Below, in pieces: positions 1,457-64,000 of a DNA stretch of 64,000 nucleotides. Numbering within the stretch: position 1 is the first letter of the stretch; each line of letters opens with the position of its first letter. The DNA is taken from assembly GCF_016924645.1 (NCBI RefSeq), contig NZ_JAFFJV010000003.1, forward strand, positions 310,001 to 374,000, written 5' to 3'. The notes below the pieces were generated by a model. The model was not told where the DNA came from and made no database searches. It worked only from the letters and a program-made list of their open reading frames with translations. The position numbers were made by a program, and so were the translations under genes. Origin of the DNA: Rufibacter psychrotolerans. Its GTDB lineage: Bacteria; Bacteroidota; Bacteroidia; Cytophagales; Hymenobacteraceae.

Positions 1457-2701
1457 TTACTCCGCCCTGAGGGCTTCAATGGGTTTAATGCTGGCGGCTT
1501 TGAGGGCGGGCATGAGTCCGGCCAGGGCTCCGGCCAGCACCAGCAGCACCGTGGCCGAGACGGCCACACCCAGGTTCACCCCCGGACTAGCGAAGAAAGG
1601 CAGCTCCGCACCGGATTTCTCCAGCGCATAGCGCATCAGATCCAGCAATCCCACGCCCGCCAGCAGCCCCAGATAGCCCGAGAAAGCCGTGATTACCACC
1701 GATTCCTGCAAAATCATGCTCACAATGGATACCGGAGTAGCGCCCAGCGCCTTCCGGACCCCGATCTCGCGGGTGCGTTCCTTCACAATGATGAGCATGA
1801 TGTTACTCACGCCCACAATCCCGGCGATGAGCGTGCCTACGCCCACCACCCACACAAACATATTGATGCCGTTGAACAGACCCATGATCTGCTCGTATTC
1901 CTTCTCGCCGTTGTTGATATCCAGCGCCTGGGCATCTTCGGGCGAGAATTTGTGCCGTTGGGCCAGCAGGCTTTTCACTTTGTCTTCAATCACCTGCGCT
2001 TTCACGCCGGGTTGCGCCACCATAGCCACCAGTTGCACCTGGTTAGGCTGGTTGTAAGTGGTCTGCAGCGTGGAGAAAGGGATATAGGCCCGTTCCTCCC
2101 TCCGGCCGCCGTTGTTGCCGCGTACGGTAAAAATGCCCACCACCTTGAAGTGGATGCCCTGGATGTTCACGTACTCTTCCAGACCAGTCTTGTCTTTGAA
2201 CAGTACTTCGCGCACCTTCTCGCCCAGCACAATCACCTTGCGTTTCTCTTTGATGTCGTTTTCGTTGAGGAGGCGGCCCACTTTCAGGCGTTCGCCGTTC
2301 ACCTCCAGGAACTCCGGCGTGGACCCGAAGACCTGGTAAGAGCCGTTCTCGGTCTTGTAGTTGATGGTGTACTCGCCCCAGAGGCGGTTACGTGGCGAGA
2401 TGATCTGTACCTGAGGTACTTCGCGGGAGATGGTGGCCAGATCCTCGTTGGTGAGTTTTATCTCGCGGCCCGGCCCCAGCCCTTTGTGGGGCATGGAAGA
2501 TTTTCCGCCGGAAAAGAAGATCCCGTTTTTGGCTCCGTCCCCAAATCGGTTGAACACCCCGTTCTGCAAGCCTTGCCCGAAACCCAGCAGCATGACCAGC
2601 ATGAAGATGCCCCAGAACACGCCAAAGGCCGTGAGGAAGGTGCGGAGTTTGTTCTTCCGGATGGTGCCCAGAATCTCCTGCCATTTGTCAATGTCAATCA
2701 T
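1457..2701 (-). CDS. MacB/FtsX-type ABC transporter permease (copy 1)
   Basis: A 414-residue inner-membrane permease with the same architecture as its downstream paralog: one N-terminal membrane helix, a periplasmic MacB-core domain, and three C-terminal helices with the motif 'VKERTREIGVRKALGATP'. It starts 12 bases after the ATPase stop codon, so the two are almost certainly co-transcribed and form one exporter. Two different permeases next to one ATPase suggest a heterodimeric complex of the LolCDE kind, or two alternative half-transporters; this is inference. The 155 bases between the two permeases carry two separate 7-nt phased repeats and a weak palindrome. Confidence 0.9.
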   Translation of the reverse strand: MIDIDKWQEILGTIRKNKLRTFLTAFGVFWGIFMLVMLLGFGQGLQNGVFNRFGDGAKNGIFFSGGKSSMPHKGLGPGREIKLTNEDLATISREVPQVQIISPRNRLWGEYTINYKTENGSYQVFGSTPEFLEVNGERLKVGRLLNENDIKEKRKVIVLGEKVREVLFKDKTGLEEYVNIQGIHFKVVGIFTVRGNNGGRREERAYIPFSTLQTTYNQPNQVQLVAMVAQPGVKAQVIEDKVKSLLAQRHKFSPEDAQALDINNGEKEYEQIMGLFNGINMFVWVVGVGTLIAGIVGVSNIMLIIVKERTREIGVRKALGATPVSIVSMILQESVVITAFSGYLGLLAGVGLLDLMRYALEKSGAELPFFASPGVNLGVAVSATVLLVLAGALAGLMPALKAASIKPIEALRAE

Positions 2702-2713
2702 GTTCTGCGGGTG

Positions 2714-3433
2714 TCAGGCTTGGGAATAAGCAACTGGCGTCAGAAATTCCTCGGTTTTGTTTCCCAGACCATCGTCCAGGATTAGACCGTCTTTGAGCCG
2801 GATCACGCGTTGGGTTTGGTCGGCAATGTCGTTTTCGTGGGTGACAATTACCACGGTCATGCCTTCGCGGTTTACTTCCTTGAAAATCTCCATCACCTCG
2901 TTGGTAGTGGCGGTGTCCAGGGCACCAGTGGGTTCATCGGCTAAGATCAGTTTGGGCTTGCTGATGAGGGCCCGCGCGATGGCCACCCGCTGCCGCTGCC
3001 CGCCAGACATCTCGTTGGGCGAGTGCTCAGCCCATTCCTTCAGGCCCACACGGTCAAGGTACTCCAGGGCCAGTTTGTTGCGCTCTTTTCGGCCTACTTT
3101 CTGGTAATAGAGCGGTAACGCCACGTTTTCCATGGCGTTTTTGAAGGTAAGCAGGTTAAAGCTCTGGAAAACGAAGCCCAGGAACTTGTTGCGGTAATAA
3201 GCAGCTTTGGCTTGGGAGAGATTCTTGATGGGGGTTCCGGCCAGCGTGTAGTCTCCGGAGTCAAAATCGTCCAGAATGCCCAGGATGTTGAGCAAGGTGG
3301 ATTTGCCGGAGCCGGAAGAACCCATGATAGACACCAGTTCTCCTTCGCGTATGTGCAGGTCAATGCCTTTCAGCACATGCAGTTTGTGCTGCGCCATGGC
3401 GTAATACTTATGGATGTTCTGGAGCTGTATCAT
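2714..3433 (-). CDS. MacB/LolD-type ABC transporter ATP-binding protein
   Basis: ATPase that powers the two adjacent permeases. The 239 residues contain Walker A GSSGSGKST (38-46), Q-loop Q90, ABC signature MSGGQRQR (142-149) and Walker B LILADEPTG (about 162-170), followed by an H-loop in VIVTHE. The short spacing and lack of other domains are typical of LolD/MacB-type ATPases. I chose the ATG at 3433 (protein begins MIQLQNIHKYY); the reading frame also allows a TTG two codons earlier. The gene leads a minus-strand unit with the permeases. The 370 bases upstream contain a palindrome and no gene. Confidence 0.92.
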   Translation of the reverse strand: MIQLQNIHKYYAMAQHKLHVLKGIDLHIREGELVSIMGSSGSGKSTLLNILGILDDFDSGDYTLAGTPIKNLSQAKAAYYRNKFLGFVFQSFNLLTFKNAMENVALPLYYQKVGRKERNKLALEYLDRVGLKEWAEHSPNEMSGGQRQRVAIARALISKPKLILADEPTGALDTATTNEVMEIFKEVNREGMTVVIVTHENDIADQTQRVIRLKDGLILDDGLGNKTEEFLTPVAYSQA

Positions 3434-3540
3434 GGTCAATCAGGGTTGAAATGCTCTTCTACAAACTCTTCGGCTAGAATGCTTTCCTTTACAGATGCTA
3501 TTCTATTGGCTTGGGTTGCTTCTCCCACAAAAAAAGATGT

Positions 3541-3582
3541 GCTGTTTTAAGCCAGCTTTTTCCAAAACCGGCCTAAAACAGC
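3541..3582. repeat. Intergenic palindrome, family member
   Basis: Arms GCTGTTTTA (3541-3549) and TAAAACAGC (3574-3582) around a GCC...GGC inner stem and an A/T-rich loop. Lies upstream of the ABC ATPase, so it is not obviously a terminator. Confidence 0.8.
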
Positions 3583-3753
3583 GGTGTGAAAGCAACTACC
3601 TTATTTGTAGCATTCACCCTTTACTTCTTACAACAATTTCAAGACAAATATTTGGCAGTTATCCCCTATGCCGTATCTGCGAATGCTTTCCTTACACAAG
3701 TTAATCAATTATGAATCAGACTACTACATTCTTAAATCATTTCCTGGGCGCAA

Positions 3754-3787
3754 TAAAAAAGCCGCTCCCGGTAAAGGAAGCGGCTTT
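3754..3787 (-). terminator. Rho-independent terminator of the His/Met-rich lipoprotein gene
   Basis: Hairpin AAGCCGCT ... AGCGGCTT, followed on the minus strand by a T run (plus-strand AAAAAA at 3755-3760). It lies about 20 bases after the stop codon of the lipoprotein gene. Confidence 0.8.
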
Positions 3788-3808
3788 CTGCTTTAAGAGA
3801 AGTTTATT

Positions 3809-4678
3809 TTATTGTTTCAGGGTTATTTTACGCTCAACAGTGTTAAACGGACCCGGAATCACTTTCCCTTGGTTGTCAATTAACTCCAGTTTAAAGGTGT
3901 TCTCGCCCATCGGCAGGCCTTCTACCAGGTACGGCAGCCACTGATCCAGAATAAACTCATTGCCGTTGATGGTGGCGCGCACCTTGTTTCCATCTTTGGC
4001 CAGTTCAGTATTCACCAGGTAGAAATCCAGCATGATTTTGCGGGTATCGGCACCGGTGTACTCGCCTTTAGGGCGGCTGTAGAACAGGTGCTGGCCGTTC
4101 TCGTCAAACTTGGCGGTGTTGCCGGTGGTATTGCCCACGTTGATCACGCGCAGGTCATACGCTTCTTTGTGCTTGATGCTCTCGTGGTAAGAACGAGACA
4201 GGAACGACAGTACCACGTGCTGGCCCGGCTTGATGGCTTTCTTGAACGTAGGCTTGTAATGGGCGGTATAAGGCTCATTGTCTACGATGTTGTGGATGTG
4301 CTGGCCTTCTTTGGAGTTGGCGTGCTCATGGGTGCCCGCGTCTGGCGTCTGCTGGCTCAGCTGGAAGTTGTTTACCGCATACTCAAACTGCACCGAGTCG
4401 CCGGTTACTTTCCCGTTTTTCTCGGGTCTGTTCAGTTCCAGATCGGCATCAGGGAAATCAACGGAGTTGCTGTAAGAGTAAACTTTCAGGCCGCCTTTCT
4501 CCATAGGCGTACCCATGGTGCCCTGGTGCTGCACACCGGCGGTATCATGGTCCATGCCCGCGTGATCCGCGGCAGCGGTGGTATCAGTATCAGTGGTAGA
4601 GGCAGCGCGCTTTCCGTCACAGGCAGAGGCAAGTAGCAGGGCGGCTACTGCCAAAAAAGACAAATGTTTCTTTTTCAT
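3809..4678 (-). CDS. His/Met-rich secreted lipoprotein of unknown function
   Basis: I do not recognise this family. The protein of 289 residues begins with a lipoprotein signal (MKKKHLSFLAVAALLLASAC, Cys at about 20) and should be membrane-anchored outside the cytoplasm. Residues about 25-55 are rich in Asp, His, Met and Thr (DHAGMDHD, QHQGTMGTPM), a composition seen in copper- or other metal-binding tails; a second His cluster HEHANSKEGQHIH follows. The rest looks like beta-strand-rich secretory sequence ending in a normal C-terminus. Start chosen at the ATG 4678 because it opens the signal peptide; an upstream in-frame ATG at 4717 would overlap the promoter. It is divergent from the oxygenase gene, and a TATCTTTG -7 box lies at 4715-4722. 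Metal binding is inference only. Confidence 0.75.
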   Translation of the reverse strand: MKKKHLSFLAVAALLLASACDGKRAASTTDTDTTAAADHAGMDHDTAGVQHQGTMGTPMEKGGLKVYSYSNSVDFPDADLELNRPEKNGKVTGDSVQFEYAVNNFQLSQQTPDAGTHEHANSKEGQHIHNIVDNEPYTAHYKPTFKKAIKPGQHVVLSFLSRSYHESIKHKEAYDLRVINVGNTTGNTAKFDENGQHLFYSRPKGEYTGADTRKIMLDFYLVNTELAKDGNKVRATINGNEFILDQWLPYLVEGLPMGENTFKLELIDNQGKVIPGPFNTVERKITLKQ

Positions 4679-4714
4679 AGTAGTTAGGTTTTCGTATAAA
4701 TACGCAGAATGTTT

Positions 4715-4722
4715 CAAAGATA
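4715..4722 (-). promoter_or_regulatory. Putative Bacteroidota -7 element (lipoprotein gene)
   Basis: Minus-strand TATCTTTG matches TAnnTTTG and lies 37 bases upstream of the chosen ATG. No clear TTG -33 box at the usual distance. Confidence 0.5.
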
Positions 4723-4783
4723 GAAATTTTGTAACTTGCAGCCCTTTTCAGCACCAATTAAGAAGACGTCAAAGGAAGACATC

Positions 4784-5755
4784 ATGAGCGATAAATTATT
4801 AGAGGAAATTCCATCGTTAGACTTAGCCGATTTCGTTTCCGGCGACCCGGCCCGCAAGGCGGCTTTCGTGCAGGCGTTGGGCGAGGCTTACCAGAACATC
4901 GGTTTTGTGGCGGTTAAAAACCACGGCTTAAGCGATGAATTGACCAAGCGTCTGTATACTGCTACGCAGTCGTTCTTTGCGTTACCGGATGACGTAAAAA
5001 GCAAATACGAGATTCCGGGGCTGGCTGGTCAGCGCGGCTACGTGGGCAAAGGAAAAGAACACGCCAAAGGCCGCAATACCGGTGACTTGAAAGAGTTTTA
5101 CCACGTAGGTCAGATCGTGACGGATAATGACCCGGTGAAGGAAGAGTACCCAGACAACGTGTGGCCCGCCGAGGTTCCTGATTTTGAATCAGCTACTTCT
5201 ACGGCTTACAAACTGCTGGAGAACGCCGGCAAGAACATGCTGCGTGCCATTGCCCTGTACCTGGAACTTCCGGAGGATTACTTCGATGCCAAAGTACACA
5301 ACGGGAACAGCATCCTGCGCGCTATCCACTACTTCCCCATCGAGGACCCAGACAGCGTACCCGCCGATGCCGTACGCGCCGCTGAGCACGGTGATATCAA
5401 CCTGATTACCTTGCTGATGGGTGCCTCTGCCGATGGTCTGCAAGTACTGCGCCGCGATGGCAAATGGATTCCGATCACGGCCTTGCCAGAGCAGATTGTG
5501 GTAAATGTAGGCGATATGCTGTCTCGCCACACCAACAACAGGCTGAAGTCTACCATTCACCGCGTAGTGAACCCGCCGCGCGAGCTGATGCACACTTCCC
5601 GCTACTCTATCCCGTTCTTCATGCACCCACGCTCTGAAATGGACCTGACCTGTTTGGAGAGCTGCATTGATGAGCAGAACCCAAAACAATTCCCAGACAT
5701 CACCGCCGGTGAGTTCCTGAACGAGCGTTTGATTGAGCTGGGACTTAAGAAATAA
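4784..5755 (+). CDS. Isopenicillin-N-synthase-like 2-oxoglutarate/Fe(II) oxygenase
   Basis: Non-haem iron oxygenase of the isopenicillin N synthase-like family, about 323 residues, cytoplasmic. The N-terminal DIOX_N region (IPSLDLADF ... GFVAVKNHGL) is followed by the double-stranded beta-helix core. Iron ligands fit H202-x-D204 (EHGDIN) and H259 (STIHRVVNP); R273-x-S275 (SRYSIPFF) fits the co-substrate carboxylate site. All expected residues are present, so it is probably active, but the substrate is unknown: the family includes plant-like hydroxylases and bacterial amino-acid or hormone-modifying enzymes. Start at 4784 is chosen because AAAGGAAG precedes it at a good distance. It is monocistronic, ending in its own terminator. 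Confidence 0.88.
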   Translation: MSDKLLEEIPSLDLADFVSGDPARKAAFVQALGEAYQNIGFVAVKNHGLSDELTKRLYTATQSFFALPDDVKSKYEIPGLAGQRGYVGKGKEHAKGRNTGDLKEFYHVGQIVTDNDPVKEEYPDNVWPAEVPDFESATSTAYKLLENAGKNMLRAIALYLELPEDYFDAKVHNGNSILRAIHYFPIEDPDSVPADAVRAAEHGDINLITLLMGASADGLQVLRRDGKWIPITALPEQIVVNVGDMLSRHTNNRLKSTIHRVVNPPRELMHTSRYSIPFFMHPRSEMDLTCLESCIDEQNPKQFPDITAGEFLNERLIELGLKK

Positions 5756-53175: not shown

Positions 53176-54963
53176 GTGAAATCACTTAAATACTTAAACA
53201 AATACCTGCTCAAATATAAATTCCGGTTTTTCTGGGGAATTGTGTTTGTGATTGTGTCCAACATCTTCGCCATTATTCCGGCGCAGGTGGTGCGGCACGC
53301 CTTTGACCTGGTGCGCGAAGGCATTACCATGTACCAGCTGCACGAGGGCTTTGCCCAGCAGGAAGAGGTCTATGACAGCTTTGCCCGCAGCACCCTGTTC
53401 TATGGCGCCGTGATTGTCTTAATGGCGCTCTTGCGCGGCATCTTCCTGTTCTTCATGCGCCAGACCATTATTGTCATGAGCCGCCTCATTGAGAACGACC
53501 TCAAGAACGAGATCTTCGCGCATTACCAGACCTTGCCCCTCTCCTTCTACCGCCGCAACAACACCGGTGACCTTATGGCGCGTATTTCTGAAGACGTGAG
53601 CCGCGTGCGCATGTACCTGGGGCCGGCCATTATGTACGGCGTCAACCTCATTGTCTTGTTCCTGATGGTGATTCCGTACATGCTCTCGGTGAACGTGAAG
53701 CTCACCATTTACACGCTGTTGCCGCTGCCCATCCTTTCGGTGAGCATTTATTACGTGAACAACATCATTGAGCGCAAGAGTGACGAGATCCAGAAAAGCC
53801 TCAGCGGCATCACCACGTTTGTGCAGGAGGCGTTCTCGGGCATCAGGGTGCTGAAATCGTTTGTGCGCGAGCAGGACTCGCACGCCAACTTCACCAAGGC
53901 CAGCGACACCTACAAAGACAAGTCCCTGGAGCTCAACTTTGTGAACTCGCTCTTTTTCCCGCTCATCCTGTTCCTCATTGGCCTGAGCACCATCATTACC
54001 GTGTGGCTGGGCGGCAAGGAAGTGATCAACGGCAGCATCACGCCGGGGGTCATTGCCGAGTTTTTGATCTACGTGAACATGCTCACCTGGCCGGTGACCG
54101 CGCTGGGCTGGACCACCTCATTGGTGCAGCGGGCCGCCGCCTCGCAGCAGCGCATCAACGAGTTCCTGAACACCAAGACCGATATTATTTCGCAGAAGAA
54201 CCTGGAGAAAGACATCAAGGGCGCCATTGTGTTTGACCAGGTAGACTTTGTGTACCCAGACACCGGCATTCATGCGCTCAAGAAACTCTCGTTCCAGATC
54301 AATCCCGGCGAGACGCTGGCCGTGATTGGCAACACGGGTTCGGGCAAGAGTACGGTGGCGGCCCTCATCTGCCGCCTCTATGACGCCACGGGCGGAAGAA
54401 TCCTGATTGACGGCGAAGACATCCGCGACTACAGCCTGTCTAACCTGCGCAGCCAAATTGGCTACGTGCCCCAGGATGTGTTCCTGTTCTCAGACTCTAT
54501 CAGGAACAACATCGGGTTTGGGGTAGACCACCTGCCCGAAGAGAAAATGCTGCAGGCCGCCAAAGACGCCGACGTGTATGAGAACATCATGCATTTCCCG
54601 GCCAAGTTTGACACCGTGCTGGGCGAGCGCGGCATCACGCTTTCGGGTGGGCAGAAGCAGCGCGTGTCCATTGCCCGCGCCCTGGCCCGCGAGCCCAAGA
54701 TCCTGATCCTGGACGACTCGCTCTCGGCGGTAGACACCAAAACCGAGAACGCCATCCTCAACAGCCTGCACCGCGTCATGGCCAACCGCACGTCTATCAT
54801 TATCTCGCACCGCGTAAGTTCCGTGAAACTGGCCGACAAGATTCTGGTGCTGGACGATGGCGTGGTGGTGCAGCACGGCTCGCACGAGGAACTCATGCAG
54901 GACCTGGCCGGCCTGTACCGCGCCCTCTACGAGCGCCAGCTGCAGGGCGAGGAGATGGAATAG
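53176..54963 (+). CDS. ABC exporter, fused permease-ATPase half-transporter
   Basis: Half-transporter of 595 residues: type-1 exporter membrane domain with six helices (about 20-320, HAFDLVREGI, QTLPLSFYRRNNTGDLMARISEDVSRVRMYLG), then the nucleotide-binding domain with Walker A GNTGSGKST (about 389-397), signature LSGGQKQR and Walker B LILDDSLSAVD. It works as a homodimer or with an unseen partner. Substrate unknown; close families export lipids, peptides or drugs. GTG 53176 is the start, 24 bases after the palindromic operator, suggesting ligand-induced control. Its stop is followed by a decayed palindrome and tRNA-Pro. Confidence 0.92.
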   Translation: MKSLKYLNKYLLKYKFRFFWGIVFVIVSNIFAIIPAQVVRHAFDLVREGITMYQLHEGFAQQEEVYDSFARSTLFYGAVIVLMALLRGIFLFFMRQTIIVMSRLIENDLKNEIFAHYQTLPLSFYRRNNTGDLMARISEDVSRVRMYLGPAIMYGVNLIVLFLMVIPYMLSVNVKLTIYTLLPLPILSVSIYYVNNIIERKSDEIQKSLSGITTFVQEAFSGIRVLKSFVREQDSHANFTKASDTYKDKSLELNFVNSLFFPLILFLIGLSTIITVWLGGKEVINGSITPGVIAEFLIYVNMLTWPVTALGWTTSLVQRAAASQQRINEFLNTKTDIISQKNLEKDIKGAIVFDQVDFVYPDTGIHALKKLSFQINPGETLAVIGNTGSGKSTVAALICRLYDATGGRILIDGEDIRDYSLSNLRSQIGYVPQDVFLFSDSIRNNIGFGVDHLPEEKMLQAAKDADVYENIMHFPAKFDTVLGERGITLSGGQKQRVSIARALAREPKILILDDSLSAVDTKTENAILNSLHRVMANRTSIIISHRVSSVKLADKILVLDDGVVVQHGSHEELMQDLAGLYRALYERQLQGEEME

Positions 54964-55074
54964 GCCCCCATTTTGGGCTTGTTTCTTGAAAAACTGGTTT
55001 AAAATGCAGACAAGTTTTATTTGGTCTTTCGCCAAAAGAGAATTTTTACTTTCTTTGCAGCAGATACCAATGAT

Positions 55075-55148
55075 CGGGGTGTAGCGTAGCCTGGTATCGC
55101 GCCAGCATGGGGTGCTGGAGGTCGTGGGTTCGAATCCCGCCACTCCGA
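55075..55148 (+). tRNA. tRNA-Pro (TGG)
   Basis: 74-base cloverleaf: acceptor CGGGGTG/CACTCCG with one G-T pair, anticodon stem CCAGC/GCTGG, loop ATGGGGT with anticodon TGG, T-loop GGTTCGAATCC. CCA not encoded. Confidence 0.95.
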
Positions 55149-55157
55149 CGAACAAAT

Positions 55158-55257: not shown

Positions 55258-55932
55258 CTACTCCATCCGCCCGAAATCATGTTTGAGGAGGAGCATGGTG
55301 AAATGCTGGTGCCGGCCGCCGCCGTGCAACTGAGACATCCACATGCCCTCCAGGCTCAGGTGCTTGCTGAACGTGTACCCAAGCCCGCTGAAGACGCGGT
55401 TAGAGTCAAACGGCTGGTCGCGCACAATCACGCGCACCTCGTTGCGCATAATGCCATACAATTGCTGTTCTTCTCGCTTGAGAATGGGCATTCTGAGAGC
55501 GAAAGAATACCTGAACCGGGTCTGGTACCCTTGGGTAAGCCAGCGTTGCTCTACCTGGTAGCGGTGCGTGAGGCCGGCTTTCCAGAGTTGCCCCCTAATG
55601 GCAATTTGCTGATACAGGCGGTGCTCATGGGTGTTGGAGGTCTCCTCGGCGGTGGTATAGGCACGGTTGAGCAAGTGCGTGTACCCCGCCAGCAAAGAAA
55701 CCGGCGCCTTCCTGAAGTTGTACTGCACCTCGGCCCCCGTGAAGAGCACCCGCAGGTCATGCAGCGGCTCATAGGTGCGGTATTGGATGTTGGCGGCCAC
55801 CACCCACTGCGGGTTTAGCCAATAGGAGCCGGTGTATTGCAGCCAGTGGTTCTTGTTGTCGGGTTGCCCGGCCGCCGCCGTTGATAGAAGTAACCCGCCG
55901 AGCGCATGCAGCAGGAAAAGCCGTCCTTTCAT
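55258..55932 (-). CDS. DUF2490 exported beta-barrel-like protein
   Basis: Protein of 224 residues with a signal peptide (MKGRLFLLHALGGLLLSTAAAG) and the DUF2490 domain: HWLQYTGSYWLNPQWVVAANIQYRTYE, LFTGAEVQYNFRKAPVSLLAGYTHLL, and alternating strands ending in FSKHLSLEGMWMSQLHGGGRHQHFTMLLLKHDFG, likely a small outer-membrane barrel. Function unknown. ATG 55932 opens the signal peptide; the longer frame has no signal. Lies downstream of a DUF3857 gene but separated by a terminator. Confidence 0.8.
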   Translation of the reverse strand: MKGRLFLLHALGGLLLSTAAAGQPDNKNHWLQYTGSYWLNPQWVVAANIQYRTYEPLHDLRVLFTGAEVQYNFRKAPVSLLAGYTHLLNRAYTTAEETSNTHEHRLYQQIAIRGQLWKAGLTHRYQVEQRWLTQGYQTRFRYSFALRMPILKREEQQLYGIMRNEVRVIVRDQPFDSNRVFSGLGYTFSKHLSLEGMWMSQLHGGGRHQHFTMLLLKHDFGRME

Positions 55933-55970
55933 TTGGTCTTTTTGGGAGAGAGTAACAGAGCCTCTTACGC

Positions 55971-56001
55971 TTTGGGCCAGATTTGGGTAATCTGGCCCAA
56001 A
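55971..56001. repeat. Short intergenic palindrome (variant)
   Basis: Thirteen-base arms TTTGGGCCAGATT (55971-55983) and AATCTGGCCCAAA (55989-56001), five-base centre. Lacks the TTTCTGAAAA centre, so it is a variant or relative. Confidence 0.8.
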
Positions 56002-56033
56002 AACAGAAGCCTTGCGTTGAGGCAAGGCTTCTG
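56000..56033 (-). terminator. Terminator of the first DUF3857 gene
   Basis: Minus-strand CAGAAGCCTTGC/GCAAGGCTTCTG (56004-56033) followed by TTTTT; 57 bases after the stop. Confidence 0.85.
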
Positions 56034-56089: not shown

Positions 56090-58114
56090 CTAAAGTTTCT
56101 TCTTCAGCACAATCTTCTCAGCGTGCTTGGCCACTATGCGGCTGTAGAACTCGCGCAGGTTGCCGTACTCAGAGGGCTGAAACAAGGTTTTGTTGATGTT
56201 CAGCTTGCTGGCTACCTGCAGCTGCCCGTTGATGACCTGCGCCACGTAGGTGAACTTGGCGGCGTTTCCGGGCAGGGTGAGCAAGGCGGTAGCCGGCAGT
56301 TCCTCCACTACGTACCCGGCGGGCAGCTCATAGGTGAAGACGTACGACTCATTTACCGGCGAGGCGAAGTCTACGGGGTACTGCCTGGTGGCCAGCTTGA
56401 ACGGGTTCTGCTCCTGCCCGTGCGTGAGCAGCGGAGCAAGGTACAGCAGGTCTACGGCCTGGTCTTCGCCGGCCTTGTTGAGCTGGTACTCTGTTTTGAG
56501 CGGCTCCTGCAGGTTGTCAAGGTTCAGGATCTTCACCTGTTGCCTTACCCAGTCGTCGCTGGTGTTGGCCAGTTCCTTCAGGTAGGCTTCCTCGCCTTTT
56601 CCCCTGATGGACGACCGCACCTGCAGCGCCGGCACTCCCCGGTAATTCTCCATCAGCGCGCCGGTTACTTCGCCGGTGGGCTTTATCTTGAGCTGACCGG
56701 TAATCTGCTGCAGGTTTGTCTCCAAACCTGTTAAGGGCAGCCATTTTCCGGCCGGGGCCTGCACCACCCAGCCCTGCCCGTTGAGGCACCGGAACGGCAG
56801 CATCCCGAAGGGCAGGTCCTGCTCCGTGGCGTCCAGCAGGTAGTTGGTCTCTCCTATGAGCACGCGGGCAATGACGTAGTCAAACTTACTGATCATGGGC
56901 GAGTTGGTGACCGGCTGGCCGTGGCCGCGGGTGCTGAGCAGCATGGGCTCGGCGGAAATGCCGGCTTCCCGCAGCAGCGCCGTCAGGACCAGGTTCACCT
57001 CAGCGGCAGAACCGGTACGGCTCTCATAGGCCTTGCGCAGGTTCTGGGTGTAGATGAGGTGCTTGCCGTTCCAGCGCATGTGGCTTTTCACGTGGCCCAG
57101 CACGGCCTTCACTTTCTCCAGGTAGTCGGTTTTGCCGGCCACCAGCTCCTCTGCCGTTTTCTTGAGGTAAGCCGTGTTGGCAAGCTGCCCGCCAAAATCC
57201 TCGTCTTTGAGCAGCTCACTGGTGAAGCCCTGCCAGTCAACGGTGGTGTACCGCGGTTCCTGGTTGGGGTACTGGATCTTGGAGAGCTCAAACTCTACTT
57301 TAGAGATGTAGTCATTGGCGTTGGCCAGGTAGGGCTCCTCGGTGAAGGCCGGCACGTCTTTCATGGCCCACCGGTATTGTACCACCTGCATGGAGATGGT
57401 GCCCCGTTCTTCCATGTTCACGTAGCCCACTTTGCGGTCCACCACAATAGGCGCGGTCTTATGCTCTACTTTCACGTCTTTGACGTGGAAGGGCAGCAAG
57501 CCGTGCAGAATGTGCTTGTACTCAAAGAACGGCACCATGCCCACGCGGTACTCGCTCCATTTCACCGGGATGGAGCGCTGGAACTCCCAGTCGCGCAGGA
57601 ACTGGAAGAAATCTGACTTGATAGTGTACGTTAGTTCAATCACCGAGCCCACCTTCACGTTGGGCATGGTTAGTTTCTTCAGGTGCCAGTTGGCGTCGCG
57701 CTTCTCGTCAAAGACGGCTTTGTCTTCCAGTTGCTGTTTGGTTACCTGCCCGTTCTCCCAGTTGTAGGTAACGCCCTTTATGTTGAGGACCTCCTCCTTG
57801 GTGCCATCTTTCCGGACGTAGTACGGAATAACAAGGTCTGCCTCGCCCAGGCCGTTCTTCTTCAGGATCTTAATGCGCATGATGCGCTTGAACTGAAGCT
57901 GGGTGCCCTTGGTAAACAGAAAGGAAGACTCGCCCAGGTCATACAAGACCACTGCCGCCGCGCTGGTGTCTGGGGCGTAGGTGGTCATTTTCACGTCTTC
58001 GGGGGTTACCTGCCCCAGCTTAAAAGGGTCTGGCGCACAGTAGCCAGCAAAACAGACGCCCATCACCAGCAACAGCAGCAGGAGCCATTTGTTAGGCAAT
58101 ATGTTGATGCTCAT
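56090..58114 (-). CDS. DUF3857 protein with inactive transglutaminase-like domain (copy 1)
   Basis: Exported 674-residue protein: signal peptide (MSINILPNKWLLLLLLVMGVCFAGYC), DUF3857 (about 30-230, DTSAAAVVLYDLGESSFLF..KRIMRIKILKKNG), transglutaminase-like fold (about 290-420) and a C-terminal beta domain. In the transglutaminase region the catalytic Cys position reads A (SRTGSAAEVNLVL) and the His position reads Y (KFDYVIARV), while the Asp remains (LLDATEQD). So it is probably a non-catalytic, binding version. Close paralog of the 60176 gene (same C-terminus ..AKHAE.IVLKKK). Function unknown; often near surface glycan and regulatory genes in the phylum. Confidence 0.85.
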   Translation of the reverse strand: MSINILPNKWLLLLLLVMGVCFAGYCAPDPFKLGQVTPEDVKMTTYAPDTSAAAVVLYDLGESSFLFTKGTQLQFKRIMRIKILKKNGLGEADLVIPYYVRKDGTKEEVLNIKGVTYNWENGQVTKQQLEDKAVFDEKRDANWHLKKLTMPNVKVGSVIELTYTIKSDFFQFLRDWEFQRSIPVKWSEYRVGMVPFFEYKHILHGLLPFHVKDVKVEHKTAPIVVDRKVGYVNMEERGTISMQVVQYRWAMKDVPAFTEEPYLANANDYISKVEFELSKIQYPNQEPRYTTVDWQGFTSELLKDEDFGGQLANTAYLKKTAEELVAGKTDYLEKVKAVLGHVKSHMRWNGKHLIYTQNLRKAYESRTGSAAEVNLVLTALLREAGISAEPMLLSTRGHGQPVTNSPMISKFDYVIARVLIGETNYLLDATEQDLPFGMLPFRCLNGQGWVVQAPAGKWLPLTGLETNLQQITGQLKIKPTGEVTGALMENYRGVPALQVRSSIRGKGEEAYLKELANTSDDWVRQQVKILNLDNLQEPLKTEYQLNKAGEDQAVDLLYLAPLLTHGQEQNPFKLATRQYPVDFASPVNESYVFTYELPAGYVVEELPATALLTLPGNAAKFTYVAQVINGQLQVASKLNINKTLFQPSEYGNLREFYSRIVAKHAEKIVLKKKL

Positions 58115-58167
58115 AAAAAGAAAAAGGATTTAGATTTTCACCGACGGGCCCGGCCAGCTCAGGATAA

Positions 58168-58222
58168 AGAAAGAAAAGGCCATAGCGGGGCTGCCCCTGC
58201 AAAGAGCGCTCTGCTATGGCCT
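58168..58222 (-). terminator. Terminator of the second DUF3857 gene
   Basis: GGCCATAGC (58178-58186) pairs with GCTATGGCC (58213-58221), with an internal GGGGC/GCCCC hairpin; TTTT follows on the minus strand. Confidence 0.75.
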
Positions 58223-58232
58223 CTGTTAACCA

Positions 58233-60146
58233 TCAGGTGGTCTCCGCGGCCAGGACTACCTGCTGCTGATCTGCCTTGGAAACCTGCTTGAGGAAGTTCA
58301 CCAGCTCCATGTACTTGGCGGCTTGGTACCGGCCCCGGTGCATGGTCATCTGGCGCACGTACACCAGCTTGTTGCCCGTCATCTGCACCTTGGCCTGGTA
58401 CTCGCCGTACGCCGAGGCGATTTTCACCGGCTGCGGCATGCTCTCTGGCTTGTACCCCGCCGGAATCTCGTACTCCACTGTGTCAACGTCATGGTACGGG
58501 TAAGACAACACCACGTCATACTTGCGGTTCTCGGTGGCGGGTGGCACGGAAGTTTGCCGGTTCATGAGGTTGGGCGTGATGAAAAGCCGCCGCCCGCTCA
58601 CAGAGGCCAGCTTAGGCAGCTCCAGCTGCAGCTTCTCGTTCACCTGGGGCTGCCCTTTCACTTTCTCCAGGGCAAAGCTTTTGATCTCAAAGGCCGGAAT
58701 CTGGGTTTGCTTGTAAAGCCATTTGAGCTGCTTCTCGGCGTCCAGCTGATGGATGATGTCATTGCGGTCTTCGTGCTGCCGACCGGCGTAGTGCGTGAAC
58801 ACCTCGCCCACGGCTCCGCCCTGCGCGTTCAGCTTTACTTTCACGGTGCGCAGCTGCGTGTTGTCTGCCGCCTTGAACCTGGGGGTAGGCACCAGTTTGC
58901 CGCCTTCGGGGGTGACCAGCAGCGAATAGCGGTCGCCGGTGAAGGAGCCGGTGTAGCCGGCATCGGCCAGCTGGTTGGTGCACTCCAGCCAAACGGTGTC
59001 TTTGGCGGTAGGCACGCACAGCACCACGTGGTTGAACTGGTTGCTGGGGAAATCTTTCAGCACAGGGCGGTTGTCGTCGCCGCCGTAGATAATGGCGTAG
59101 TGGCTGGGAATGCCCGCCACTTCCAGCAAGGCCTTGGTGTAATTGCTGAGGGCTTTGCAGTCGCCGTAGCCTTTGCTGTCTACCATGGAGGCCTCAAAAG
59201 GCTGCCAGCCCCCAAGTCCCAGCTGGATGGAAACGTACCGCGTCTTGTTCTGCATGAACTGGTACACCGCCTTTATCTTCTCCTGGGGAGTAGCCAGGCC
59301 TTTGGTGAGGGCAAGGACCTGCTGCTTGGTGGCCTCGGGCAGTTGGTCTCTGCCAGCGTTCAGTTTGTTCTGCCACTCGCCCATGGCTTTCCAGGAGTCA
59401 AGGCTGCCGGCGTAGCCTTCCACCTCAAACGAAGTGGCGGCGGTACGCACCAGGGGCACTATCTCGAAGAACTTGGGCCCGTAGGGCTCTGTCTCCACGG
59501 GTGCCAGGTTTTTCACCTGCCAGCGGTACACCTGCTGGCCGCCTTCCTGGCTCAGCTTTCCTTTTTCGGGCAGCCGTTGCTCCAGGTAGCGCAGGGGCAT
59601 GCCAGTGGGCATGTTCACCTGAAAAGTAGCGTTTTCAATGGAGAGTTTCTCGGCGGAGAGGGGTTGCCAGACCGGGTAGAGCAGCATGTTGCTGGTGGTG
59701 GTCTGATACTCGTACTCCACGGTGTACGGATAGGTATGGTGGGCCATCTCGCTCACTTTGGCCCGGTCATCGCCGTACAGGGTGCCGTCTCCGTTGGCGC
59801 TGTAGTCTTTGATGTCAGACGACTTAAGGGCGCGCACCTTCTTCCCGAAGGCGTCATAGAGCGTACCTTTGAGGTAGTCTACTTTCTTTAGCTTGTCATA
59901 GTACACCACCAAGCTGCCGTGCCCCTTGCCGTCTTCATTGAGCACCGTCACTACCTGCCGCACTTTCTCGGTGGCCGATTTGGGCGAAACCACCGTGAAA
60001 ACGGTTTCCTCTGTGCGCACCACGGCGTTGGCTCCCTTAGACAAAGCGGGGCTGATGGTAAGCGCCGCGTACGTGGGCGAATCTCCGGCCCAGGCTACCC
60101 TGCTCACCAAGGCCGAAAGCAGAAATATGATTAGTTGTTTTTGCAT
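58233..60146 (-). CDS. DUF3857/transglutaminase-like protein, likely active (copy 2)
   Basis: Exported 637-residue protein: signal peptide (MQKQLIIFLLSALVSRVAWAG), DUF3857 domain (about 40-240), transglutaminase domain with Cys330 (GYGDCKALSNYT), His373 (FNHVVLCV) and an acidic third residue, Glu388 (WLECT) where Asp is usual, then a C-terminal beta domain. It keeps the Cys and His that the two neighbouring paralogs lack. Proteins of this kind are thought to be periplasmic peptidase/transglutaminase-like enzymes, but no substrate is known. Its start codon abuts a half copy of the intergenic palindrome. Middle of three consecutive DUF3857 genes. Confidence 0.85.
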   Translation of the reverse strand: MQKQLIIFLLSALVSRVAWAGDSPTYAALTISPALSKGANAVVRTEETVFTVVSPKSATEKVRQVVTVLNEDGKGHGSLVVYYDKLKKVDYLKGTLYDAFGKKVRALKSSDIKDYSANGDGTLYGDDRAKVSEMAHHTYPYTVEYEYQTTTSNMLLYPVWQPLSAEKLSIENATFQVNMPTGMPLRYLEQRLPEKGKLSQEGGQQVYRWQVKNLAPVETEPYGPKFFEIVPLVRTAATSFEVEGYAGSLDSWKAMGEWQNKLNAGRDQLPEATKQQVLALTKGLATPQEKIKAVYQFMQNKTRYVSIQLGLGGWQPFEASMVDSKGYGDCKALSNYTKALLEVAGIPSHYAIIYGGDDNRPVLKDFPSNQFNHVVLCVPTAKDTVWLECTNQLADAGYTGSFTGDRYSLLVTPEGGKLVPTPRFKAADNTQLRTVKVKLNAQGGAVGEVFTHYAGRQHEDRNDIIHQLDAEKQLKWLYKQTQIPAFEIKSFALEKVKGQPQVNEKLQLELPKLASVSGRRLFITPNLMNRQTSVPPATENRKYDVVLSYPYHDVDTVEYEIPAGYKPESMPQPVKIASAYGEYQAKVQMTGNKLVYVRQMTMHRGRYQAAKYMELVNFLKQVSKADQQQVVLAAETT

Positions 60147-60148
60147 GG

Positions 60149-60178
60149 TTTTCTGAAAAATAGCCCTAAAACGCCTTA
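60149..60178. repeat. Half copy of the intergenic palindrome at a start codon
   Basis: TTTTCTGAAAAATAGCCCTAAAACG is the centre plus right arm of the family; the left arm is replaced by the first codons of the DUF3857 gene (start codon at 60144-60146). Confidence 0.65.
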
Positions 60179-62209
60179 CCCTTTCTTCTTCAAGACAATC
60201 TGCTCAGCGTGCTTGGCCACCACCTGGGTGTAGAACTGCCGCAGGAACTCGTATTCCTCGGCGTAGAAAACCGCCTTGGTGAGGGACACCTTGCTCATCA
60301 CCTGAATCTTATTGCCTTGGGTCTGCACCATGTAGGTGAACCGGCCGCCGTTCTCGGGCAGGGCCAGCACCAGGCTCTTGGGCATTTCCTCTACGCCGTA
60401 GCCTTCTGGCAGCGTGAAGCTGCAGATGTACACTTCTTCCCGCGCGTGCGCGAAGTCAACGGGAAACTTGCGGTTAGCCAGCTTGAACGGGTTCTCCTCG
60501 GGGGTTTTCAGGAGCATGGGGTTGAGGTAGATCACGTCTTTGGCCTGGTCATCTCCGGCACTGGCCACGTCATACGTAAGGCCCAACGGCTGCTGTAGTT
60601 CTTTCAGGTTCTTGAGGACAGGCTTCTTCCGCTCCAGCTGGTCCTGACTGTTCACCAGTTTCTCCAGGTACTTCTCCTCGCCGGCGTCCAGGATGGCGTG
60701 CCGCTGGTTGAGGGCCCACAGGCCGCTGGTAGATTCGTTCACTTTGCCGGTGAGGGCGCCGGAAGCCAGCACCTGCAGGTCTGCGCTCACCAGCTCGGTT
60801 GTGCGGTCTGGGGACTGCAGCGGCACCCACTCGCCCCCGGTCTTGGTTACCAGCCAGCCGCTGCCGTTGAGGCAGTGTCTGGGAAGCAGGCCCAGCGGCT
60901 GCAGCGGGTCTGTGGCATCTAACAACAGGCCGCGGTTGCCGGCCTGCACATAGGCAATCACGTAGTTAAACCGGCTCACAATGGGGCTGAAAGGCGCCCG
61001 GCCGTTGTCACGGGTACTCAGGATTACGGGGTGAGCCTCAAAGCCGGCATCGCGCAGCATGGCTACCAGCATGAGGTTAATGTCTGCGGCGTTGCCGTTT
61101 CTGGCGTCAAATGCCTTGCGTAGGCTGGTGGTCACGTACTTGCCACCCTTGCCGTTCCACTTCACAGACTTCTTGACAAACTCATAAATAGCATTGAGGC
61201 GGTCCAGGGTGTCTTGCACTGACCGGAAAGCCGCTACCTCGTCTTTGAAGAATCCCGTGCGGTTCAGCTGCAGGCCAAACCGTTCGTCAGACATGAGTTC
61301 CTCTGAGAGGGCGGTCCAGTTGCCGGCGTGTCGTTTGGGCACGGCGTTGGGGTAGCGCTCCCACTCCAGCTCAAACTCAATCTTAGACACGTAGTCGTTG
61401 ATGGTGGTGATGAACGCCTCTGGGGCAATGGCCGGCACGTCTTTCATGACCCAGCGGTGGCTGGTGCTCTTTGCCGAAATTGTCTCAGAGCCTCCCGAGC
61501 TGCGCCCCCCCTTTAAGCCTGGTTCAATGGAACTGCTCCAGCGCACCGTAAAGCTCATGGTGCCCGGCAGGGCCTCGTTGACCGCATAAGGCTCATACCC
61601 TTGCGGCAACTGCTTGTACTCAAAGTATTCTGGGATGGTGGCCCGGTACTCACTGTGCACCACCGGCACCGAGTGCTGGAAGGTCCAGTCGCGCAGGAAA
61701 AAGACAAAGTCTGAGGTAACGGTGTAGGCGATCTCCAGCACTGATCCTTCTTTGACCGCCGGCAGCGTGAATTTCTTGTTGAACCAGTTCGCTGATTCCT
61801 TCTCGTCAAAGATGGCTTTGTCGTCCATCTTCACCTTCACCATTTTGCCGTTTTCCAGGTTATAGGTGAAGCCTTTGATGTTCATTACCTGCTCTTTGCT
61901 CCTGCTTTGCTGGTAGTAGGGCACTACCACGTTGGCCCAGTCATAGCCGGTTTTCTTCAGTATCTTGATGCGCATGATGCGCTCAAAGTTGACCTTGAAC
62001 CCCTCCTGGTAGGTGAAGTAAGAGCGTCCGTAATCGGCCAGGATCACGGCGGCGGCACTGGTGTCTTTGGCATAGACCTGCATCTTGAGTTCTTCTTCCG
62101 TGACCTTTCCTAGTTTCACCGGAGCTTCCTGACCCACCGCCAGAAATTGACACAAGAAGAACACCACAACCAGCAAAGGTCGTGTTTTTAAGAAAGTAAA
62201 ATGGGGCAT
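60176..62209 (-). CDS. DUF3857 protein with inactive transglutaminase-like domain (copy 3)
   Basis: Exported 677-residue paralog of copy 1: signal peptide (MPHFTFLKTRPLLVVVFFLCQFLAVGQ), DUF3857 (RSYFTYQEGFKVNFERIMRIKILKKTG), transglutaminase-like region where Cys is replaced by Ala (RNGNAADINLMLV) and His by Tyr (RFNYVIAYV) while Asp stays (LLDATDPLQ). The C-terminal domain ends in VVAKHAEQIVLKKKG, almost as in copy 1. Two dead paralogs flank one with intact Cys and His; perhaps a complex or regulatory partner set. First gene of the row; the AT-rich region upstream holds no clear -7 match. Confidence 0.85.
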   Translation of the reverse strand: MPHFTFLKTRPLLVVVFFLCQFLAVGQEAPVKLGKVTEEELKMQVYAKDTSAAAVILADYGRSYFTYQEGFKVNFERIMRIKILKKTGYDWANVVVPYYQQSRSKEQVMNIKGFTYNLENGKMVKVKMDDKAIFDEKESANWFNKKFTLPAVKEGSVLEIAYTVTSDFVFFLRDWTFQHSVPVVHSEYRATIPEYFEYKQLPQGYEPYAVNEALPGTMSFTVRWSSSIEPGLKGGRSSGGSETISAKSTSHRWVMKDVPAIAPEAFITTINDYVSKIEFELEWERYPNAVPKRHAGNWTALSEELMSDERFGLQLNRTGFFKDEVAAFRSVQDTLDRLNAIYEFVKKSVKWNGKGGKYVTTSLRKAFDARNGNAADINLMLVAMLRDAGFEAHPVILSTRDNGRAPFSPIVSRFNYVIAYVQAGNRGLLLDATDPLQPLGLLPRHCLNGSGWLVTKTGGEWVPLQSPDRTTELVSADLQVLASGALTGKVNESTSGLWALNQRHAILDAGEEKYLEKLVNSQDQLERKKPVLKNLKELQQPLGLTYDVASAGDDQAKDVIYLNPMLLKTPEENPFKLANRKFPVDFAHAREEVYICSFTLPEGYGVEEMPKSLVLALPENGGRFTYMVQTQGNKIQVMSKVSLTKAVFYAEEYEFLRQFYTQVVAKHAEQIVLKKKG

Positions 62210-62739: not shown

Positions 62740-62740
62740 C
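62589..62740. mobile_element. MITE-like element with 18-bp terminal inverted repeats
   Basis: Perfect 18-base ends GGCTGTGTCTGAAAAATG (62589-62606) and complement (62723-62740), flanked by TA on both sides (62587-62588, 62741-62742), a target duplication typical of IS5/IS630-type transposition. No transposase inside. It contains one copy of the palindrome family (62619-62656). Confidence 0.75.
62619..62656. repeat. Intergenic palindrome inside the MITE-like element
   Basis: Arms TTTTGGGGCT (62621-62630) and AGCCCCAAAA (62645-62654), centre GCTTTTGGGAAAGT. The only copy lying inside a mobile-looking element. Confidence 0.8.
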
Positions 62741-64000
62741 TAAGGAGTGTAGTCCAGGGGCAGCATCTCGGCGAGTTTCTCAAACCCCCAGTAGCCTTCC
62801 ACCAGGTGCGAGTACGGGTTAATGATCATGCCGTTGGGCTCAATGAACGTGTACGGCTCCAGCAGCGTGAGCAGGGAGGTCTGGAACGTGGGGGCCCGGC
62901 GCCGGTTAAACGCCTGCTGGTTCACAAAGCCCGGCTCTTCCTGCTCTTTGGTGTACACCACGTTGAGGTAGTCTGGAAACCGAAGCATGAGCCGGCCCTG
63001 GCCCACAGAATCTGGGGCGATAATCTGGTGATACGGAATCGGGTCTTTGTACAGGTACGCCACCACCTTGTCTAAGCGCGCCATGCGGGTCCAGTACTGC
63101 AGACTGTCTTCGGGCCCGGTAGGGAGGCTTTTGATGACCACGGGGCCGGTGCGCAGGCGACGGGCCCTCCGCAGCCCCGCCTGAATCTGCTCCTCGGGCG
63201 GACGGCTGGGATTGGGCAGCCGCTGCAGCCGCCTCACGTTAAACCCTTCGGCCTCTACCCTGTTCTGGTACAGGGCCCGCACAAAATGCATCAAAGAGCC
63301 ATGGTAGGCTTTCAGGCGGGCCTGGGCCCAGCGCTTCTGCTGCGCCTTGCCGCGTGGCTTTATTTCCTCAAACCGGGGGAACCCGGCATGGAAAATCTGC
63401 CCGCCCTTAAAATCGGCCCGAAACTCCTTCAGCACAAAATGGACCCGGTATCCCAGGGCCTTGTTCTCAATGATGAGCGGCTCACTGGCTTCGGCGGTCA
63501 GGACCCGCTCCCGGGGATCAAACTGGAAATGCAGCGCCTCAGCGTTGGCTATGCTGGTTTTGGCGGCGTTCGCCGTTTGCCCGATGAAGTGCTGCAGGAA
63601 CACGCCGTAGTTGTGCCGCCAGTTGGTGTCTGGCCTGATTACCACTTCCTGCAGCACGTTGGCCGCGGGGACCAGTTCAAACCGGAAGGAAAGCTGCTGC
63701 CCGGGCTGTAACGTGAACTGGTGTGACAAGGTGCTATATCCTAAAAAGGAAACCACCAACTCATGGCTGCCGGCGGGCAGGGCGTTCAGCCTGAAGGTGC
63801 CGTTTTCTGCGGTATTGGTGCCGTACGTGGTCTGGGCGATGAAGACGGTGGCAAACCCCAGCGGCTGCTTGGTCTGCGCGTCAATGACCGTGCCCGACAC
63901 GCTCCCCGCCTGCCCCCGGGCAGTGCCTCCCTGGCCCAGCAGCAAAACCAAGAGGGCCAGACACCAGAAAAAACCCGAACGCGTGGGGGAGAGAAACGGC
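62740..64000 (-). CDS. CarboxypepD_reg-like exported protein, 5' end beyond the window
   Basis: Partial gene. The frame stays open to the window end, and translated codons upstream of a possible TTG at 63951 give a signal-peptide-like core (SGFFWCLALLVLLLGQGG), so the true start lies outside. Next come a CarboxypepD_reg-like domain (about 15-95 of the visible part, VSGTVIDAQTKQPLGFATVF..GSHELVVSFLGYS) and a ~300-residue C-terminal region with no recognised family (WRHNYGVFLQHFIGQTANAAK). The stop codon TAG at 62740-62742 overlaps the edge of the MITE-like element. Function unknown, likely outer-membrane linked. Confidence 0.75.
   Translation of the reverse strand, partial: PFLSPTRSGFFWCLALLVLLLGQGGTARGQAGSVSGTVIDAQTKQPLGFATVFIAQTTYGTNTAENGTFRLNALPAGSHELVVSFLGYSTLSHQFTLQPGQQLSFRFELVPAANVLQEVVIRPDTNWRHNYGVFLQHFIGQTANAAKTSIANAEALHFQFDPRERVLTAEASEPLIIENKALGYRVHFVLKEFRADFKGGQIFHAGFPRFEEIKPRGKAQQKRWAQARLKAYHGSLMHFVRALYQNRVEAEGFNVRRLQRLPNPSRPPEEQIQAGLRRARRLRTGPVVIKSLPTGPEDSLQYWTRMARLDKVVAYLYKDPIPYHQIIAPDSVGQGRLMLRFPDYLNVVYTKEQEEPGFVNQQAFNRRRAPTFQTSLLTLLEPYTFIEPNGMIINPYSHLVEGYWGFEKLAEMLPLDYTP

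Follow-up and report, generated by a model that had tools for sequence, protein, structure and literature searches.

A dead transglutaminase-fold protein encoded beside a putatively active paralogue: DUF3857 pairs in the Bacteroidota

What is served by a transglutaminase fold that has lost its nucleophile and is kept directly beside a relative that has not? The question is raised by three consecutive genes of Rufibacter psychrotolerans on the minus strand of a 64,000-nucleotide (nt) stretch of contig NZ_JAFFJV010000003.1 (positions 310,001 to 374,000; henceforth the window, in whose numbering all coordinates are given). In order of transcription they are copy A (60176..62209), an open reading frame (ORF) of 677 amino acids (aa) and the first gene of the run, copy B (58233..60146; 637 aa) and copy C (56090..58114; 674 aa), with gaps of 29 nt between A and B and 118 nt between B and C. 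B is live, in the sense that it retains the Cys and His of a transglutaminase active site; A and C are dead. As judged from gene content across the phylum, the real unit is not the trio but a pair, dead plus live. The answer favored here, with a probability of about one half, is that the dead protein acts at the cell envelope as a subunit of the live enzyme, non-catalytic and probably substrate-binding, or as its escort.

All three proteins pass the Pfam cut-offs for the domain of unknown function DUF3857 (PF12969; 34.8 bits for A, 103.4 for B and 30.3 for C, cut-off 24.6) and for Transglut_core (PF01841; 30.9, 27.8 and 29.6 bits, cut-off 23). DUF3858 (PF12970) matches each of them at its expected place, with scores (18.6, 24.5 and 23.3 bits) below the cut-off of 27. 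A search of the three against NCBIfam gave no match, and no further DUF3857 match was found in this genome. Over 672 aligned columns, A and C share 45% of their residues; A and B share 24% over 355 columns in the C-terminal half. Alignment confirms what a preliminary description of the locus had said of the active sites of these three adjacent ORFs. In A, the catalytic Cys column holds Ala374 (61088..61090), the His column Tyr416 (60962..60964), and the third residue is kept as Asp431 (60917..60919); the corresponding residues of C are Ala370, Tyr413 and Asp428, so that the Cys-His-Asp triad is absent from both and replaced by Ala-Tyr-Asp. B has Cys330 (59157..59159) and His373 (59028..59030), with Glu388 (58983..58985) in place of the Asp. 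In the predicted structure of A, an N-terminal helix (residues 10-23) resembles a signal peptide, and there is no set of seven membrane helices.

Two classes of DUF3857 protein

One hundred regions fetched from the phylum, together with the window, yield 245 ORFs of the family. In a tree of 240 of these, one split with support of 1.0 separates 86 live proteins (Cys-His-Glu or Cys-His-Asp) from the other 154. The Cys-His-Asp copy of locus L052 falls among the 154; it belongs to a second type of pair, considered below, and is excluded from the live counts. A slower tree of 75 rows, to which canonical Cys-His-Asp relatives were added and from which the three triad columns were removed, recovers the dead clade with support of 100 and the live clade with 92. 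The dead class is shown by these phylogenies to have one old origin. A loss of the sites in parallel in A and C is rejected by the trees: both copies lie inside the one dead clade, where the genus's A group and C group unite before any other genus joins them (fast tree; support 0.87 for the union). The dead copies are under purifying selection similar to that on the live copy: among nine genomes of the genus, the window's included, the median pairwise ratio of nonsynonymous to synonymous substitution rates (dN/dS) is 0.128 for A, 0.131 for B and 0.148 for C, based on 24, 12 and 22 pairs, respectively, with a synonymous divergence (dS) below 1.5.

The residue counts come from overlapping sets of loci. 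Labels that are independent of the triad are those of the tree and of the profile classification; "live" is defined by the triad itself in the adjacency and residue counts of the fetched loci and in the counts of C-terminal ends. In 80 named loci (the best 80 of at least 591 stretches matching a pattern that required the live-copy Cys but neither the His nor the Glu, so that only the Cys is there by construction), the profile-classified live copies read Cys-His-Glu in 80 of 80 cases. The third residue is Glu in 84 of the 87 live copies of the phylum loci, and Asp in the other 3; Glu388 is normal for its clade. Restoration of both Cys and His, which the preliminary description named as a refuting observation, is seen in none of the 107 profile-classified dead copies of the named loci; one (L142) has the Cys alone, and the Asp is present in all 107. 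Among 153 dead copies of the phylum loci, 151 have the Asp, none has the Cys and 24 keep the His, so that the His-to-Tyr change is not supported as a hallmark. The nucleophile therefore disappeared at or near the base of the dead class, the His decayed later and variously, and the Asp stayed. The nearly identical C-terminal tails of A and C (IVLKKK in both) are not distinctive of these two copies either: an IVLKK-like end is found in 162 of 257 dead and 14 of 166 live proteins. One dead subgroup (L121-L123, L125 and L128-L132) sits on a long branch and has Gln at the Cys column; no live partner was found in its region.

The pair across the phylum

The association of the two classes was surveyed in 296 genomes of the phylum, the window's own included, by searching with a broad profile for each class and scoring the best 4 candidates per genome, so that extra copies may be missed. 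Cut-offs were placed at 500 bits for live proteins (the next row scores 262) and at about 297 bits for dead ones, with the addition of a 227-bit contig-end fragment of genome G301; rows below these were excluded as other subfamilies. Live places number 75, spread over 72 genomes, and dead places 131, spread over 88. Each of the 75 live places has a dead one no more than 600 nt away and on the same strand, and none of the 72 genomes has a live copy without a dead one, a count to be read in the light of a live profile that was built from live copies beside dead ones and on which an unpaired live copy, if strongly diverged, might fall below the cut-off. The dead gene comes first in 46 of the 75 places, the live gene in 26, and dead genes lie on both sides in 3. 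Because both gene orders occur, the linkage must have outlived rearrangement.

The fetched loci, which are not fully independent (some genomes are represented twice, Rufibacter immobilis as L036 and L133, for example), give a finer view. Once 3 ORFs gapped at a triad column are set aside, a dead neighbor lies within 600 nt of 163 of the 167 live copies, and the nearest dead gene precedes the live one in 139 of these 163 adjacent pairs. The frames overlap in 45 pairs and overlap or lie within 10 nt of each other in 101; since the first possible start codon was used throughout, the overlaps are upper estimates. Up to four dead copies stand beside one live copy in a locus. Of the four exceptions, one is L137, whose dead copy is 2.6 kb away; in the genomes of the other three, L140, L148 and L193, dead copies lie at other places or beyond the end of a contig. 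A further pair (L204) is on a 6.3 kb contig binned as Gemmatimonadota, possibly by a binning error. By residues, descent and position, the arrangement qualifies at sequence level as an enzyme-pseudoenzyme pair: a dead protein, paralogous by common descent, whose gene lies next to that of its live relative. Recurrence of the pair across the phylum suggests that the dead partner has a real job.

Within the genus the trio is present: 15 of 15 genomes have clusters of at least three PF12969 genes, and its absence from relatives, which the preliminary description would have counted against it, is not seen at this rank. Dead copies flank the live gene on both sides in 11 of 12 fetched loci of the genus; in the twelfth (L033, about 2400-5140), copy C is frameshifted, possibly through an assembly error in a draft of 170 contigs. 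In other genera of the family, all 7 fetched loci have their dead copy or copies only upstream of the live gene and 0 of 7 have one downstream, and the trio was rejected as a conserved unit on that count. The most likely reading is that C arose within the genus by duplication of an A-type gene, since the A and C groups unite first and the other genera lack the downstream copy.

No third gene accompanies the pair across 171 loci whose neighbors were clustered (these loci were selected by the pair, whose own count is therefore by construction): the commonest other cluster is present in 32 of the 171, and on the same strand in 5 of those 32. Several of the neighbor clusters are confined to one family. 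In the window, C is followed by a DUF2490 gene (55258-56025, minus strand) whose cluster comprises 12 loci, and A is preceded by a gene for a CarbopepD_reg_2 domain protein (62740-63951, minus strand) whose cluster comprises 13; all of these loci, the window among them, are from the same genus. A terminator-like hairpin with a 12-pair stem and a run of T (56004..56033, minus strand) is located between C and the DUF2490 gene; it is a consensus match only, and such sites are no commoner in the region than in shuffled sequence (11 found, 9.1 expected). A promoter scan, which covers only sites of the sigma-70 type, found none. Farther along, a listed ORF (54490-55155, minus strand) probably has a spurious start, because it overlaps a tRNA-Pro gene on the opposite strand (55075-55149, plus strand).

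The pseudo-active site and a second type of pair

Conservation was scored on alignments of 59 of the 81 live and 69 of the 105 dead rows that the named loci and the window supply. Across the 69 dead rows there is no variation at Ser398, Thr399 and Asp431; Arg400 is found in 68 and Tyr416 in 67, and Asn378 and Gly403 are also nearly invariant; the Cys column is occupied by Val, Ser or Ala, and its conservation reaches only the 57th percentile. Ser398-Thr399-Arg400 (61010..61018) would form a wall of the pseudo-active-site pocket. Among active enzymes of the second pair type, the corresponding columns hold Thr in all 14 rows and Arg in 10 of them, and because Thr-Arg is thus present in active relatives, the wall looks inherited from an active ancestor; its interpretation as an invention of the dead clade was dropped for the same reason. 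A pocket that keeps its wall and its Asp and has lost its nucleophile is what would be expected of a class in which the substrate-binding elements of an active enzyme had survived. The argument applies most strongly to the nearer relatives, since conservation weakens in more diverse sets: in one such set, only P182, W298, G403 and R580 are invariant, and in another (n=15), the Tyr416 column holds Tyr in 5 rows, His in 4, Thr in 2 and other residues in the remainder.

A second type of pair consists of a Cys-His-Asp DUF3857 protein followed directly downstream by a dead DUF3857-like protein. It was found at 11 of 20 loci picked by score (174 to 262 bits on the live profile, with frames of roughly 630-740 aa, to the exclusion of proteins near 1,250 aa and of a few other rows). 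One of the 11, G236, was seen in 6 kb only. With G164 in its place the count becomes 12 of 20, with gaps of -20 to +81 nt; G164 was itself picked by score, but its dead neighbor was already known when the substitution was made. The 12 (L257, L259, L260, L263, L265, L267-L270, L272, L275 and L276) fall in one live clade, which has a further member, G034, whose dead relative is on another contig; apart from G034, the solitary Cys-His-Asp proteins fall outside this clade. L052 and L245 also hold pairs of the second type; they were chosen for visible adjacency and are in neither count.

In 15 rows of the dead members of these pairs, the Cys is never present (one row has a gap), and the Asp and the His are each present once. 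Eleven such proteins were scanned: DUF3857 is recognised above its cut-off in 8 and Transglut_core in 1. Those of L257, L260, L263 and L265 score only 81-88 bits on the profile of their own class. In its phylogenetic placement, the second pair type is distinct from the first in its live clade and in its dead clade. The two dead clades together form one side of a branch with support of only 56, and a topology that joins the first dead clade to the first live clade is not rejected (approximately unbiased test, p = 0.42). In profile comparison, the second dead clade scores 382 against the first dead clade and 287 against the live clade; these scores lean towards a common dead ancestor and prove nothing.

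A role for the dead protein

B would be an exported thiol enzyme of the transglutaminase fold, produced together with its dead paralogue, here in two versions; export is suggested by N-termini that resemble signal peptides. Peptidase, amidase and cross-linking activities are the candidate chemistries. The dead protein would still bind the ancestral kind of substrate, and would present it to the live protein or assemble with that protein as a non-catalytic subunit. Purifying selection on the dead copies and a nearly strict linkage fit the dead protein as a functional partner.

Several facts weigh against this assignment. Dead copies occur with no detected live copy in 16 of 88 genomes, and a second search of 8 of the 16, in which all candidates were scored, brought out no live-type match; a dead protein that can work alone weakens the case for a strict subunit. 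The pairs of L137 (dead copy 2.6 kb from the live one), L140 and L148 are not adjacent, and G025, a genome of the same taxonomic order, has the two genes about 90 kb from each other on a single contig. The linkage may reflect shared regulation only. In the more diverse dead set (n=15), the wall is weaker (Ser in 12, Thr in 11, Arg in 13), with the Asp present in all 15. Catalysis by B, with its Glu in the third place, is putative and unproven.

The dead-only genomes also bear on what else the dead protein might be. They are just what is expected if it is an independent binder of the enzyme's own ligand or a related one, co-expressed with that enzyme and making no contact with it; conservation of the Ser-Thr-Arg wall and the Asp around a missing nucleophile suits such a binder equally, as does the presence of several dead copies at one locus. 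Near-strict adjacency with overlapping or nearly touching frames favors stoichiometric production instead, and the apparent dependence of the live copy on a dead one is left unexplained, which makes the independent binder rather unlikely. That dependence is accounted for if the dead protein serves specifically to inhibit the live one or to act as its safety catch: an enzyme that is harmful when uncontrolled should never be found in a genome without its dead copy, and the dead gene should tend to come first, as it does in the large majority of adjacent fetched pairs. An inhibitor has no evident business in the dead-only genomes, however, and the live gene is first in about a third of the surveyed places; conservation of the pocket itself is also not what inhibition calls for. 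The inhibitor is accordingly the less probable of the two. The preliminary description had offered binding partner and inhibitor side by side: the former fits selection and linkage, and the latter is disfavored.

Two further possibilities carry little weight. The invariance of Ser398, Thr399 and Asp431, with Tyr416 close behind, might signify that the dead class has gained another catalysis through this cluster; with only P182, W298, G403 and R580 constant in a diverse set, the Tyr416 column variable, and Thr-Arg common to active relatives, no fixed new site spans the clade, and a new activity is very improbable. Redundant tandem duplicates on their way to decay could be proposed on the strength of the frameshifted copy C of L033, if that is real, and of the variation in copy number. 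A dN/dS of 0.13-0.15, like that of the live gene, one old dead clade, and linkage across many families make decay scarcely credible.

The subunit or escort role thus stands as the favored assignment, and a broader proposition can be attached to it only tentatively: that the DUF3857 proteins of the phylum may form obligate heteromeric enzyme-pseudoenzyme modules, which arose twice, or once before the pair types split, and in which the dead subunit, as the more persistent part, would hold substrate at the envelope. Pseudoenzymes encoded beside an active paralogue are recognised, as are inactive transglutaminase folds. What a phylum-wide, nearly strict pair in a domain-of-unknown-function family adds is a large number of natural replicates for asking what dead enzymes do, and the dead-only genomes and the second pair type should allow subunit, inhibitor and independent binder to be told apart by experiment. 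A caution follows for annotation: proteins called transglutaminase-like in this phylum include many without a nucleophile.

One of these has a structure. AlphaFold2 models of B and A are confident along nearly their whole length (mean predicted local distance difference test scores of 93.6 and 90.8), and the best structural match of both, again over nearly the whole length, is 3kd4 (Z of 26.2 for B and 19.4 for A). This protein, BDI_1141 of Parabacteroides distasonis, is a DUF3857/Transglut_core/DUF3858 relative titled "putative protease"; in the alignment it lacks the catalytic Cys, with YGTP where live copies read YGDC. Literature searches on 3kd4 and on the domain names brought up no study of its role or of pairing, and a search of titles and abstract openings, with subscription papers beyond reach, found none on such a pair. 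The N-terminal domain matches Ost1/ribophorin I, M1 aminopeptidases and the inter-alpha-inhibitor heavy chain. Below 3kd4, the core of B matches LapG and TglA (Z of 11.2 for each), the core of A matches yeast PNGase (Z of 10.4) and chains of Rad4 (Z of about 9), and transglutaminases are also among the core matches.

LapG, TglA, PNGase and the mammalian transglutaminases are alike in core fold and differ in flanking domains. None of these is known to have a pseudoenzyme partner in its operon, and neither Rad4/XPC nor EPB42 (protein 4.2) is known to have an adjacent active paralogue. Like the dead proteins described here, Rad4/XPC and EPB42 are transglutaminase folds without activity, kept for binding or scaffolding according to PMC10318531; they differ in being eukaryotic and in having another domain architecture. 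In bacteria, PMC12239564 describes RloB of Pseudomonas aeruginosa, an inactive transglutaminase with seven transmembrane helices that is predicted to face the periplasm. RloB resembles copies A and C in being a bacterial pseudo-transglutaminase, encoded in an operon with a peptidase. It differs from copy A, whose model has no seven-helix membrane part, and, according to the same source, it shares its operon with a retropepsin-like peptidase and an ATP-grasp protein rather than with its own active paralogue.

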